A stretch of DNA of 64,000 bases from Micromonospora sp. RHAY321. GTDB lineage: Bacteria > Actinomycetota > Actinomycetes > Mycobacteriales > Micromonosporaceae. Position numbers and translations under genes: made by a program. Shown piece by piece: positions 29,258 to 33,010 of this stretch (the stretch's first letter is position 1; every line of letters begins with the position of its first letter). The DNA is taken from contig NZ_JAMHIW010000022.1 of NCBI RefSeq assembly GCF_023896955.1, positions 1-64,000 of the forward strand, read 5' to 3'. A model generated the notes under the pieces. That model saw only the letters and a program-made list of their open reading frames with translations, was not told where the DNA came from and did not search any database.

Positions 29258-30175
29258 ATGCTCTCCACCCGCGACCTGGTCGCCGGCTACGACGAGCGGA
29301 CCGTGCTCGACGGGCTCGACCTGGACCTGCCCGCCGACGCGTTCACCGTGATCGTCGGGCCGAACGCGTGCGGCAAGTCCACCCTGCTGCGGACCATGGC
29401 CCGGCTGCTCACCCCCCGCCGCGGCACCGTGCTGCTCGACGGCAGCGCCATCCGCGACCTGCCGACCCGCGAGGTCGCCCGCCGGCTCGGCGTACTGCCG
29501 CAGAGCCCGCTGGTGCCCGAGGGCGTCACCGTGGCCGACCTGGTCGGGCGCGGACGGCAGCCGTACCAGCGGTGGTGGCGGCAGTGGTCGGCCGAGGACG
29601 GCGCGGCGGTCGACCAGGCGATGGCCCTGGCCGACGTGGCCGGCCTGGCCGACCGGCCGGTGGACAGCCTCTCCGGCGGTCAGCGGCAGCGGGTGTGGAT
29701 CGCCATGACGCTGGCCCAGGACACCGAGGCCCTCCTGCTGGACGAGCCGACCACCTTCCTCGACCTCGCCCACCAGGTGGAGGTGCTGGACCTGCTGCAC
29801 CGGCTGCGCGTCGAGCGGGGCCGCACCGTGGTGGCCGTGCTGCACGACCTGAACCAGGCCGCCCGCTACGCCGATCACCTGGTCGCGATGCGCGACGGTG
29901 CCGTGGTGGCCGCCGGGCCACCCCGGGAGATCCTCACCGCGGACCTGGTCCGCGACGTCTTCGGGCTGGCCTGCGTGGTCGTGCCCTGCCCGGTGACCGG
30001 AGCACCGCTGGTGGTGCCCGCCCACACCGGCGGCACCGCCCTCCGCGGCTCCGCCACCCCGTCCGCCGCCGCGGACGACTCCGATCCGTCGGGTGCCTCC
30101 GTGCCCGACGCCCGACCCGCCAGCGGCGATGCGGCCACCCCGCTCGCCGGCTCGTACCCCTCGAAAGGACTCTGA
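29258..30175 (+). CDS. siderophore ABC transporter ATP-binding protein
   Basis: A 305-residue ATPase of the FepC/FecE type. Walker A GPNACGKST (about 33-41; G-to-C substituted form GPNxCGKS common in this family), Q-loop VLPQSPLVPEG, signature LSGGQRQR, Walker B ALLLDEPTTFLDL and the H-loop AVLHDLNQAA. The last 55 residues after the family core are Ala/Ser/Asp-rich and probably disordered. ATG 29258 is chosen over GTG 29255 because GAAGGAG is 5 nt from the ATG and only 2 nt from the GTG. Confidence 0.93.
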   Translation: MLSTRDLVAGYDERTVLDGLDLDLPADAFTVIVGPNACGKSTLLRTMARLLTPRRGTVLLDGSAIRDLPTREVARRLGVLPQSPLVPEGVTVADLVGRGRQPYQRWWRQWSAEDGAAVDQAMALADVAGLADRPVDSLSGGQRQRVWIAMTLAQDTEALLLDEPTTFLDLAHQVEVLDLLHRLRVERGRTVVAVLHDLNQAARYADHLVAMRDGAVVAAGPPREILTADLVRDVFGLACVVVPCPVTGAPLVVPAHTGGTALRGSATPSAAADDSDPSGASVPDARPASGDAATPLAGSYPSKGL

Positions 30176-31122
30176 TGCGTCGTCTCGTCGCCGCCCTCAC
30201 CGCGGCCGTCGCCCTCGGCGTCGGACTCACCGCCTGCGGTGAGAGCGACCCGGTCGCCGGCTCCACCACCGGGGAGACCCGGGAGATCACCCACGCCATG
30301 GGCACCACCAAGGTCCCCGCCGAACCCAAGCGCGTCGTCGTCCTCGACACCGACAAGATCGACACGGCGCTCTCGCTGGGCGTCACGCCGGTCGGCGCGG
30401 CCACCGCCGGTGAGGCCAGGAGCTGGCCGACGTACTTCGGTGCCGAGAAGCTCACCGGCATCAAGGAGGTCGGGGTGCTCACCGAGCCCGACCTGGAGGC
30501 GATCAACGCGCTGAAGCCGGACCTCATCCTCGGCAGCAAGTTCCGCCAGGAGAAGTTCTACGACGAGTTGGCCGCCATCGCGCCCACCGTGTTCACCGAC
30601 AAGGTCGGCATCACGTGGAAGGAGAACTTCCTCCTCGACGGCAAGGCGCTCGGCCACGAGCAGCAGGCCAAGGACCTGCTCGCCGCGTACGAGAAGCGGG
30701 CCAAGGACTTCGGCGCGACGCTCGGCGACGCCGCCGCCCGCAAGGTGTCGATCGTCCGGTTCATGCCCGGCGCCATCCGCGTCTACGGCCCGGACTCGTT
30801 CTCCGGCATCGTCATCGGCGACACCGGCCTGGGCCGCCCCGAGCGGCAGATGCTCGCCGCCAAGGAGGACAAGCGCTTCGACCAGGTCAGCCCCGAGCGG
30901 ATCAACGAGGTCGACGGCGACGTCATCTTCGTGACCGCGTACGGCGACAAGGCCGCCGCCGAGCAGGCCAAGATGACCGGCGGCACCCTGTGGAAGGGCC
31001 TCGGCGCGGTCAAGGCCGGCAAGGCGTACCCCGTTGCCGACGAGGTCTGGATGACCGGCATCGGCGTCGGCGCCGCCAACAAGATCCTCGACGACCTCCA
31101 GAAGTACGTCCCCGCCGCCTGA
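30175..31122 (+). CDS. ferric-siderophore substrate-binding lipoprotein
   Basis: A 315-residue FepB/FhuD-type periplasmic-binding-like protein. It has a lipoprotein signal with lipobox GLTAC (acyl-Cys at 21), then a class III solute-binding fold: HAMGTTKVPAEPKRVVVLD, ALSLGVTPVG, and ALKPDLILGS. It would capture the ferric chelate outside the cytoplasmic membrane. The ATG shares one base with the TGA of the ATPase gene (TGATG), so it is coupled to it. It is the last gene of the iron-box operon, and a 39-nt hairpin follows about 70 nt later. Confidence 0.93.
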   Translation: MRRLVAALTAAVALGVGLTACGESDPVAGSTTGETREITHAMGTTKVPAEPKRVVVLDTDKIDTALSLGVTPVGAATAGEARSWPTYFGAEKLTGIKEVGVLTEPDLEAINALKPDLILGSKFRQEKFYDELAAIAPTVFTDKVGITWKENFLLDGKALGHEQQAKDLLAAYEKRAKDFGATLGDAAARKVSIVRFMPGAIRVYGPDSFSGIVIGDTGLGRPERQMLAAKEDKRFDQVSPERINEVDGDVIFVTAYGDKAAAEQAKMTGGTLWKGLGAVKAGKAYPVADEVWMTGIGVGAANKILDDLQKYVPAA

Positions 31123-31186
31123 CCGACCCGGCGCGCTCTCCGGGCGCCCGCGCCAGCGCGTCATGGCCCCAAGATCGCGCACGATC

Positions 31187-31246
31187 CATGAAGTAGTGGC
31201 CTTCCCCGGTAGGGGAGGCCACTACTTCTGTGTTTGAGCACGATCA
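31187..31246 (+). repeat. hairpin repeat R1 (terminator-like), copy flanking DUF559 gene
   Basis: A near-perfect stem at 31190-31228: GAAGTAGTGGCC-T-TCCCC, loop GGTA, then GGGGAGGCCACTACTTC, with one bulged T. It is followed 8 nt past CCACTAC by TTGAGCacGATC. R2 (32255-32314) shares GTAGTGGCC, the CCCC, CCACTAC, the 8-nt spacing and TTGAGCxxGATC. R1 lies between the siderophore operon and the DUF559 gene, whose stop codon falls inside its right end, so it can end both transcripts. Confidence 0.75.
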
Positions 31247-32152
31247 TCGTGTCCAGGGGGAGCGGGACCGTGCGCGCAGGGCGGCCCTGACCTCGGCGAG
31301 GAAGCCGTCGAAGTCCTCCCGGAGCCGCTTGGCAGTTGCGTGCAGGACGATCCACTCGCCGCCGAGCAGTCGGTTGAGCCGCCGGCGGTCCCGGTGGAAC
31401 TGCTCCGGATCGTCGTGCCAGAGCCCGTCATACTCCACCGCCACCTTGAACTGCGGCCAGGCCAGGTCCAGCCGGGCCACGAACCGGCCCTGGTCGGTGA
31501 CGATCCACTGCGTCTGTGGTCGGGGCAGTCCGGCGAGCACCAGCCGCACGCGGGTGCGGGACTCCTGTGGTGACTCCGCGCCCGCGTCGGCCAGGTCGAT
31601 CGCGCGCAGCAGGGACCGCCAGCCCCGCCGACCCGCCCGGCTCAGCGCGTATTCCCGCAACGCCGGCACGTCGGTGAGCCGGCTGGACAGCAGGGCGTCG
31701 ATGACGACCACCGCCTCGACCACCTGGAGCCACCGAGCGAGGTCCCAGCAGGTCCGCGCAGGGCTCGTCACCGTGACCCCCGCCCGGTTCACCGTGTCAC
31801 CGGGGTCGATCTCGCCGTGGTGGACCCGAAGGCCTGCGGTCGGCCCGATCCGGGTTTCCCGGGGCACCAGCACGTCGAGCGGCTCGCTCTGGCCTGGGGT
31901 CGCGCAGCCGTACAGGGCCGCCGCGGCACGCCCGGCGATGGCCGCGCCAGGCGGGATCAGCCAGCGTCCGACGGCGGCGCACCTGGTCCGGTGGGTGACT
32001 CTGACCCGAGCGTCGGCGTAGACGTCCCGGAAGAGCGGCCGCCACGCGGAGCTGCGGAGGTCGTTGCGGGTCAGCAGGCCTCGTGAGACGGCGACCGAGC
32101 CGCGGAAGATCCGACCGCGCAACTGCGGCGGCCGGCGAGGAGCTTTCGGCAT
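31244..32152 (-). CDS. DUF559-type protein with Vsr/PD-(D/E)xK nuclease-like C-terminus
   Basis: A 302-residue two-part protein. Residues 1-100 resemble the winged-helix N-terminus of AbiEi-like proteins (LLTRNDLRSSAWRPLFRDVYAD, then a PPGAAIAGRAAAALYG segment). The C-terminal 120 residues have the DUF559/Vsr-like endonuclease fold: VARLDLAWPQFKVAVEYDGLWHDDPEQFHRDR with the D, E and QFHRDRRR pattern, then WIVLHAT. Such genes are numerous in actinobacterial genomes; function is not established. It is bracketed by two related hairpin repeats (R1, R2). The annotated ATG at 32152 begins the basic N-terminus MPKAPRRPPQLRGR. Nuclease activity is inference. Confidence 0.8.
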   Translation of the reverse strand: MPKAPRRPPQLRGRIFRGSVAVSRGLLTRNDLRSSAWRPLFRDVYADARVRVTHRTRCAAVGRWLIPPGAAIAGRAAAALYGCATPGQSEPLDVLVPRETRIGPTAGLRVHHGEIDPGDTVNRAGVTVTSPARTCWDLARWLQVVEAVVVIDALLSSRLTDVPALREYALSRAGRRGWRSLLRAIDLADAGAESPQESRTRVRLVLAGLPRPQTQWIVTDQGRFVARLDLAWPQFKVAVEYDGLWHDDPEQFHRDRRRLNRLLGGEWIVLHATAKRLREDFDGFLAEVRAALRARSRSPWTR

Positions 32153-32254
32153 GGCCTCCAGGCTGACCGATCGCGCTGCCCCACGGCGCCCCTGTGGATA
32201 ACCGCGAACTCGGCGTCGGCGTCTGACCCCCCGGCACCCGGTGGTCTCGTCCGA

Positions 32255-32314
32255 ACATGGATGTAGTGGCCTCCCCGGGAACGGAAGACCACTACATCCA
32301 GGATTGAGCGTGAT
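32255..32314 (+). repeat. hairpin repeat R2, second copy flanking DUF559 gene
   Basis: Stem at 32259-32299: GGATGTAGTGG(CCTCC) with GGAAGACCACTACATCC; an 11-bp perfect outer arm and a partly paired inner arm. It is followed 8 nt past CCACTAC by TTGAGCgtGATC. Same orientation as R1. R2 lies in the 213-nt gap between the DUF559 start and the stop of the 214-aa gene, and can terminate the latter. Confidence 0.7.
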
Positions 32315-32365
32315 CTTGTCGGACGGGCCGCAGCGAACGGCCTTGCGGGCGGAGGGGTTGGTCCG

Positions 32366-33010
32366 TCAGGCGGCGGGGGACCAGATGGCGCGGAAGGCGG
32401 CGGCTTCGCCGGCCAGCCAGCGTTCGATCTGCTCGGGCTTGGCGTCGGTGGGCATGCGGTGGGTCTGGCCGCGCCGGACGTCGACCAGGACCGGCTCGGC
32501 GTGCGGCAGCACCGCGTCCATGTGTCGGGCCATCAGGTGCAGGGTGGCGAGCACCGACTCCTCACTCGGCGGGGTCTCGTCGAAGTGCAACCGGATCGCC
32601 TCGGCGTGGCCGTCGGCGTGCCGTACGCCGAAATGGGGGTTGATCTTGACCGGTAGGTCGCCCAGCATGGCCAGGGCGTCGCGGGTCTGGGCCAGGTCGA
32701 GGGCGGCCGGGTCGCCGAGGGAGTGCAGCCAGGCCGTGGCGCCGGGCACCAGCGCCTGGTAGAGGGGGCGCCAGCGTGGCTTGACCACGTCGACCACGCC
32801 GGCGAGGTGGGTGCCGCCGGTGTGGAAGGCGATGTCGGCCTTGAGCGCCTTGACGAACTGGCCGTGCGGGTTGAAGCCGGAGCGGCTGGCGCGCTGCTTG
32901 CGCAGCCCGCCCACGAAGGTCGCCTTGGTGGGGCCGTTGCGGTCGACGTAGCGGGTGAAGCCGAGCAGCGTGGCGTAGGGGGTGAGGGGCGTGGAGGCGG
33001 GCGCGGTCAC
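32366..33010 (-). CDS. unrecognised conserved-looking protein, 214 aa
   Basis: I do not recognise a family. The protein looks globular and well composed: TPYATLLGFTRYVDRNGPTK, a lysine/arginine-rich loop GLRKQRASRSGFNPHGQF, then VKALKADIAFHTGGTHL, VKPRWRPLY, a HFGVRHADGHAEAIRLHF strand region with several histidines, and a C-terminal helical part. No signal peptide or membrane segment. The many His/Asp/Lys residues in motif-like settings suggest an enzyme or nucleic-acid-binding protein, but no function can be assigned. RBS GGGAGG is 8-9 nt before the GTG at 33010. A 24-bp palindrome lies 40 nt upstream, so regulated expression is likely. Terminators separate it from both neighbours. Confidence 0.65.
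   Translation of the reverse strand: MTAPASTPLTPYATLLGFTRYVDRNGPTKATFVGGLRKQRASRSGFNPHGQFVKALKADIAFHTGGTHLAGVVDVVKPRWRPLYQALVPGATAWLHSLGDPAALDLAQTRDALAMLGDLPVKINPHFGVRHADGHAEAIRLHFDETPPSEESVLATLHLMARHMDAVLPHAEPVLVDVRRGQTHRMPTDAKPEQIERWLAGEAAAFRAIWSPAA

Follow-up and report, generated by a model that had tools for sequence, protein, structure and literature searches.

In the 64,000-nt stretch of Micromonospora sp. RHAY321 DNA analysed here (the window), a gene for a protein with a predicted nuclease fold lies between R1 and R2, two copies of a sharp-edged 79-nt imperfect palindrome that is dispersed in Micromonospora genomes. We judge the chances slightly better than even that R1, the gene and R2 together form the locus encoding the protein of a two-part repeat system, one resembling REPIN/RAYT but run by an unrelated nuclease. 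The 79-nt palindrome would be the spreading unit, and the protein, a predicted AbiEi–Vsr fusion, would be its dedicated enzyme.

Two palindrome copies flank the gene

The gene occupies 31244–32152 on the minus strand and encodes 302 amino acids. R1 (31170–31248, plus strand) lies on its 3′ side and R2 (32240–32318, plus strand) on its 5′ side, with limits set by where conservation drops off in 69 other copies. Given the minus-strand orientation of the gene, its stop codon falls inside R1, as a preliminary description of this DNA had noted, and R2 lies about 88 nt upstream of its start. The same description had reported two repeats in the same orientation about 1.07 kb apart; they start 1070 nt from each other and are 70% identical over 71 nt. 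The core that it assigned to both, CCACTAC-N8-TTGAGC, is present in R1 and R2, and with a spacer of 5 to 12 nt these are its only two places in the 6.9-Mb genome. In the window, TTGAGCNNGATC occurs exactly twice, at R1 and R2, and with up to one mismatch it has 8 matches (2.05 expected). A covariance model built on 19 copies, R1 and R2 among them, matched R1 at 31168–31250 with 86.5 bits and R2 at 32238–32320 with 76.5 bits. Both also fold as the proposed hairpins when treated as DNA: R1 at −25 kcal/mol with a 17-bp stem (z = −7.1) and R2 at −17 kcal/mol (z = −2.5; 4 of 200 shuffles were as good).

Alignment of the strict-pattern copies gave a consensus of approximately CAAGATCG(C/T)GCTCGATCC-N-GGATGTAGTGGCCTC, followed by a loop of about 10 nt and the reverse arm. 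For edge, pairing and context analyses we assembled 70 copies, of which one at a contig end (L281) was dropped, leaving 69 for the edge profile, arm pairing and duplication search; no two of the 69 have identical 15-base left flanks, and orthologous places may be among them. Across these 69 copies the edges are abrupt, with mostly 1–2 bits of information within the 79 nt and 0.1–0.7 bits in the 20 nt on either side, and the loop is free of conservation. Within the stem, model positions 17, 19 and 20 mostly lack a pairing partner. Own arms outpaired swapped arms in the 69 copies (1927 versus 1850.9, s.d. 11.8), a surplus in favour of a hairpin or a two-fold site, which subfamilies can also produce. 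RNAalifold, run on 19 copies, found both-sided change in 1 of 17 pairs, that is, almost no covariation. No signal above |z| = 3 for a target-site duplication appeared in the 69 copies (2–9 nt, five by five trims), and four Rfam matches (E = 1.4–4.6) all fell below the curators' cut-offs. On anatomical grounds we also weighed integron attC sites and set them aside, since their ends look different from the conserved ends of the 79-nt palindrome.

Predicted structure of the encoded protein

The AlphaFold model of the 302-residue protein (pLDDT 91.2) predicts an AbiEi-like module (residues ~8–189) fused to a Vsr/EDxHD-like nuclease fold (~194–297). In VIA-align, which re-aligns the list produced by Foldseek and on which the structural likeness rests, residues 8–189 of the predicted model matched the AbiEi antitoxin 6y8q (Z = 12.1, r.m.s.d. 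5.7, 172 residues) and the Rv2827c structure 1zel (Z = 9.2). Residues 194–297 of the same model matched the catalytic domain of I-Bth0305I (3r3p; Z = 11.1, r.m.s.d. 3.4, 95 residues), tied with 3hrl (Z = 11.1), and Vsr itself (1cw0, Z = 8.9). Foldseek alone returned no match at E = 0.001 or better for this model, a sequence search of solved structures gave one weak match (7bqr, E = 0.016), and NCBIfam had no match for the protein.

PADLOC AbiEi models matched the window protein at E = 3.3e-10, one of them matching 27/27 relatives; in Pfam AbiEi_1 the window protein is below the cut-off (19.5 versus 22.2) and its relative L042 is above it (28.3). The DUF559 label originally given to the gene is sub-threshold for the window protein itself (16.8 bits against a cut-off of 20.6); a Vsr-like nuclease fold is nevertheless backed by the relatives and by the predicted fold. 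With E = 0.01 as the limit, MTES_1575 matches 25 of 27 relatives and DUF559 (PF04480) matches 20. Family matches of the window protein and its relatives comprise AbiEi, MTES_1575/DUF559 and other restriction-type families, with Y1_Tnp absent. In the alignment of relatives E197 is invariant, and E240, D242, H246 and D255 are kept in at least 90% of the 27 rows. By analogy with AbiEi proteins, the N-terminal part is likely the recognition module, and the modelled Vsr/EDxHD part is likely a nuclease.

Three relatives look interrupted or frame-shifted, with a stop codon, a split match or a divergent end (L063 5001–5789, L049 5001–6284 and L069 5001–5867), from which decay of the gene may be common. 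Alignment A2 omits L010, whose left arm is partly missing, and L002, a duplicate of L001; A3 omits L063 on account of its internal stop.

Palindrome copies are dispersed in Micromonospora genomes

In its own genome the covariance model finds 13 places at 50 bits or more, including R1 and R2. The preliminary description had proposed a small mobile unit of hairpins and gene. A dispersed palindrome that varies in presence and absence agrees with this; most copies (11 of 13 in the own genome) lie beside unrelated genes, so we describe a gene accompanied by a family of repeats and not a strict hairpin–gene–hairpin unit. The strict pattern CCACTAC-N8-TTGAGC occurs in 20 copies in 14 of 101 Micromonospora genomes (reversed control, 1/101), and 2 of these 20 have a relative of the window protein nearby in the fetched DNA (up to 1.5 kb on each side). 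We named the type shared by R1 and R2 class 1. Its core is found in 61/101 genomes, with strict counts of up to 26 per genome; the reversed control is found in 3/101.

Class-1 copies are mostly solitary and mostly at gene 3′ ends. By crude gene calls, 55 of the 70 selected copies could be classified, as 32 convergent, 20 tandem and 3 divergent, and none of the 70 lies inside a gene. We picked 60 of the 70 as solitary (56 high-scoring and 4 core-pattern places) and deliberately left out copies at the gene, so that their lack of a DUF559 neighbour is by choice. The 56 came from a scan that scored 45 candidates per genome, for which reason its copy numbers do not enter the counts given here. At the intergenic region orthologous to that of one solitary own copy (L075), read by eye from 30 loci of which 10 are incomplete, relatives vary: some have nothing alike, others a class-1 palindrome, a class-2 palindrome, the two together, or palindromes of different kinds. 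A further palindrome, CGATCTTGCACTTTCTGTCC...GGAACTGCAAGATCG with one varying base, occupies this place in three species (L153, L155 and L159).

Other palindromes were encountered alongside. Loci L144 and L145 have an intergenic family of about 80–90 nt, CCGCCTTTGCTCTGCTTCA...TGAAGCAGAGCAAAGGCGG, with a similar one in L133, all in other species. Weaker second matches lie 100–170 nt from the class-1 copy in L263, L266, L290 and L291, which suggests that palindromes, perhaps of different classes, cluster in the same intergenic regions. Viral contigs searched with one exact class-1 core pattern gave 0 matches.

Related genes are bracketed by their own palindromes

A genome scan yielded 52 relatives, each taken with as much as 5 kb of DNA per side. 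The preliminary description had suggested looking for enrichment of the palindrome next to such genes, and long palindromes are indeed enriched there. Those scoring at least 15.5 numbered 74 in the 32.9 kb lying no more than 330 bp from the gene and 35 in the remaining 443.7 kb of these 52 loci, a 28.5-fold higher density near the gene, although many of these loci are orthologous and the number of independent cases is therefore smaller. At least one scoring palindrome was present at 44/52 loci, with palindromes on both sides at 28 and none at 8.

The palindrome differs by protein clade, with classes 1–3 in Micromonospora and unrelated ones in Mycobacterium/Mycolicibacterium and Modestobacter. 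At 26 of 35 loci the similarity of the flanking pair exceeded the 95th percentile for pairs taken from relatives below 60% identity, and palindrome similarity tracked protein identity (Spearman 0.66, permutation maximum 0.24); common descent alone also yields some of both the pair likeness and the correlation. Among distant paralogues (38–52% identity in the best stretch), 20 regions inspected by eye had another related palindrome type on both sides in 4 cases and on one side in 4.

Distant AbiEi–DUF559 paralogues at L301, L311 and L313–L317 adjoin their own palindromes, which start near TTGATCGACTC or GATCAACTCGG, and palindromes of type AGACACCCATGGCGTTCCACTCG lie at most 400 nt from distant paralogues at L306, L307 and L310. 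Genes of the window protein's type (D1; 73–80% identity) at L233, L234, L236 and L237 are outside the slot described below and have a variant palindrome; its change of TGTAGTGG to TCGAGTGG or ACGAGTGG hints at coevolution in fine detail.

Gene and palindrome change together at one slot

One side of the slot is marked in relatives by the conserved neighbour p214 (32366–33010, minus strand; no Pfam match), which is present in 101/101 genomes of the genus. The other side is a substrate-binding protein gene (30175–31122, plus strand; Peripla_BP_2, PF01497, E = 1e-26) convergent with p214, so that the slot lies between convergent genes. With p214 in every genome, the DNA after it could be compared in 100 of 101, G031 being left out at a contig end; five cut slots (G004, G005, G054, G063 and G083) were set aside, leaving 95 loci.

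The nuclease-fold gene is present in 41/95 slots. Protein types D1 to D4 were compared with palindrome classes through arm consensus letters, whose source genomes partly overlap the survey set. Seventeen slots combine D1 with class 1 only, 16 combine D2 or D4 with class 2 only, and in 5 a D3 gene occurs with nothing but class 3. The decision to pool D2 with D4 as class 2 was made once their palindromes had been seen; the D1 and D3 results are independent of it. One slot is mixed (G069, a D4 gene with class 3 and class 2), and two have a gene with no palindrome detected (G003 and G081). Thus, in 38/41 gene-holding slots every detected palindrome matches the protein class. Counted by palindrome, D1 slots have 33/33 of class 1, D2/D4 slots 30 of class 2 and 1 of class 3, and D3 slots 10/10 of class 3.

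Orthologous loci without the unit, which the preliminary description had proposed to look for, do occur. Eight of the 95 slots hold a solo palindrome and no gene (class 1 in five, with one weak case; class 2 in two; class 3 in one), and a further 46 have neither gene nor palindrome at the threshold used; in many of these 46 the binding-protein gene is also not the neighbour.

Class switching has occurred repeatedly at this slot. On the weakly resolved p214 tree, slot states need 40 changes (best tree), compared with a shuffled mean of 45.7, and supported branches alone force at least 6 changes for D1 with class 1 and at least 8 for D2 with class 2. D1-versus-other and class-1-versus-other agree in 5/5 independent pairs on supported branches (P = 0.0625, the minimum for five pairs). 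Slot states and concordant pairs together indicate that gene and palindromes change together while the neighbourhood is otherwise conserved.

Palindrome and gene classes across genomes

Genome lists for D1 (at least 73% identity) and D2 were drawn from among the matches listed and from the slot survey, with G081 in neither. Class-1 cores were present in 25/25 genomes with D1 among the matches listed versus 36/76 without (P = 5e-7), and showed no link to D2 among the matches listed (P = 0.64; 101 genomes). As this first test counts the gene's own flanking pair, we subtracted two copies per D1 genome; on the same lists, class 1 then remained in 20/25 D1 genomes versus 36/76 (P = 0.005; rank test, P = 3e-4). 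Class-2 arms were found in 18/23 genomes with D2-type genes among the matches listed versus 29/78 without (P = 7e-4) and had no relation to D1. Their link disappeared once the own arms were subtracted (10 or 7 of 23 versus 29/78, P = 0.63; D2 among the matches listed), which confines it to the locus as far as shown.

In phylogenetically independent pairs the class-1 link pointed the predicted way without reaching significance, with 3.6 of 9 pairs concordant and 0 opposite (median P = 0.125); at a bar of 5 copies, 3.9 were concordant and 0.9 opposite (median P = 0.375). Of 20 genomes with at least 10 class-1 copies, 8 have no D1 gene among the matches listed, as expected after gene loss and also if another enzyme moves the palindromes. 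Seven of the 10 genomes without a relative of the gene at E = 1e-6 have neither a class-1 nor a class-2 palindrome.

Two palindromes were followed in Mycobacterium-type genomes. The exact arm of one is present in 5/5 genomes with its gene clade and in 0/7 others, with several copies away from the gene; the second is present in 2/2 genomes with its gene clade and in 0/10 others, and in one of the two every exact match is at the gene. The Y1 transposase (PF01797), found in 29/101 genomes and in 3/20 palindrome-rich ones, does not correlate with the palindromes across the 101 genomes (P = 0.18), and we rejected it as their mobilizer.

Possible mechanism and alternative readings

If the locus belongs to a two-part repeat system, the AbiEi-like module would bind the palindrome arms, as AbiEi proteins bind DNA repeats, and the Vsr/EDxHD-like domain would nick or cut the DNA at the palindrome or next to it, perhaps while the palindrome is extruded as a hairpin. 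Repair could then copy the palindrome into a new intergenic place. Alternatively, a solo palindrome might be cut and mended from a palindrome–gene–palindrome template, installing the gene in a homing-like manner. Recombination between the flanking copies would delete the gene and leave a solo palindrome, which fits the solo states at the slot, in a direction that they do not prove. What the genomes show is bracketing, class matching at one slot, sharp-edged dispersal, variation in presence and absence, and repeated class switching at the slot; we infer binding, cutting and copying by the fusion protein. The genome comparisons captured no movement of palindrome or gene in progress.

Autoregulation or a toxin–antitoxin-like arrangement seems to us fairly unlikely. 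Here the AbiEi-like module would use the palindromes as operators, and the protein, as a regulator or defence nuclease, would control its own gene. Passages of PMC7319586 describe AbiEi proteins that bind 23-bp inverted repeats at their promoters, the scored upstream palindromes begin 103–238 nt ahead of the point where the matched coding stretch starts, and AbiEi models match all 27 relatives. Operators would leave unexplained the copy at the 3′ end, the solitary copies among unrelated genes, the sharp 79-nt edges and the gene-less solo states, and no AbiEii toxin family is present among the scanned neighbours (p214, the PF01497 protein, an ABC ATPase, FecCD and a DUF3516 helicase).

Pure homing, whereby the nuclease installs only its own gene at solo palindromes that spread by other means, is close to the two-part reading and may be part of such a system; as the whole explanation we consider it unlikely. 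The best solved match of the nuclease domain, tied with 3hrl, is a homing endonuclease domain, and both the class turnover inferred on the best p214 tree and the solo states suit it. Against it, class-1 copy numbers accompany D1 (among the matches listed) beyond the gene's own pair, so that the palindrome itself seems to rely on the gene.

It is also conceivable, and in our estimate distinctly improbable, that an unrelated transposase moves the palindromes as MITE-like elements, with the gene as cargo caught between two copies. The prevalence of solitary copies, the palindrome-rich genomes that lack D1 among the matches listed and the loss of the class-2 genome-level link on subtraction would all follow. 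Cargo should vary, yet one protein family is bracketed by several unrelated palindromes, and the one transposase family examined, Y1, is uncorrelated with them.

That the palindromes are bidirectional terminators or mRNA ends accumulated at gene 3′ ends, with bracketing as a by-product, is very improbable: the gene context of the solitary copies, their absence from genes, the position of the slot between convergent genes and a match of R1 in a lax terminator scan are in keeping with it, but the T-run after R1 is poor (TGTGTTTGAG), most of the 79 nt show conservation of sequence and not of pairing alone, the palindrome class at an orthologous slot follows that of the protein, and REP elements have the same bias to gene 3′ ends.

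The operator, terminator and foreign-transposase readings explain parts of the data, and none of them accounts for both the class matching at the slot and the dispersal. Returning to the two-part repeat system, we can extend it tentatively, with more doubt than confidence, to actinobacterial AbiEi–Vsr fusions in general. These would be the engines of a separate class of mobile system that cut and spread palindromes specific to themselves, whose genes home into solo copies and which coevolve with their palindromes clade by clade. If so, many unexplained actinobacterial DUF559/AbiEi genes would be such engines, giving a role to genes that now have none. The three protein–palindrome pairs at one chromosomal slot offer a ready set for testing how repeats persist.

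Comparison with known systems

In the open-licence PMC literature, with few subscription papers covered, we found no description of AbiEi/DUF559 genes bracketed by palindromes. Several known systems share features with this one. Like MITEs, the palindromes are short non-coding inverted-repeat elements with presence/absence variation; unlike MITEs, they have no detected target-site duplication and, among the Y1 transposases examined, no parent transposon was found. The N-terminal two-thirds of the predicted model resembles AbiEi antitoxins of the AbiE type IV toxin–antitoxin system and Rv2827c, both of which are described in passages of PMC7319586 as binding inverted repeats. The locus differs from AbiE in its fused nuclease fold, in the lack of an AbiEii toxin gene among the scanned neighbours and in palindromes that lie on both sides and are also dispersed.

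With EDxHD/Vsr-like homing endonucleases such as I-Bth0305I, which according to a passage of PMC3943268 dimerises on a target of nearly 60 bp, the protein shares its predicted C-terminal fold and the locus its turnover at the same site. By contrast, no intron or intein is seen here, the gene lies between intergenic palindromes and an AbiEi-like module replaces the phage DNA-binding parts.

REPIN/RAYT is, to our knowledge, the case of scattered palindromes with a dedicated enzyme of such kind. Common to both are scattered extragenic palindromes, a gene flanked by its cognate repeats, several flavours each with its own gene and a bias to gene ends. Here, however, the protein is a predicted AbiEi–Vsr fusion and not a HuH/Y1 transposase related to IS200/IS605, the palindrome forms a single 79-nt unit, and its GTAG is found within the conserved stem, paired with CTAC, rather than unpaired at the foot of a hairpin. 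Strict counts reach 26 per genome, whereas REPIN copies often number hundreds. With a protein other than a HuH transposase, and with palindromes whose distribution does not follow that of Y1 transposases, the system would work like REPIN/RAYT without being a member of it. For REPINs, passages of PMC3116915 describe the tie to RAYTs through scattered palindromes, a gene beside its own palindromes and several flavours each with its own gene; a survey of GTAG REP elements (PMC3733652) names other phyla and uses none of the words Actinobacteria, Micromonospora or Mycobacterium. A second such system built on an unrelated nuclease fold would, if our reading is true, mean that this arrangement of palindromes and dedicated enzyme arose more than once.
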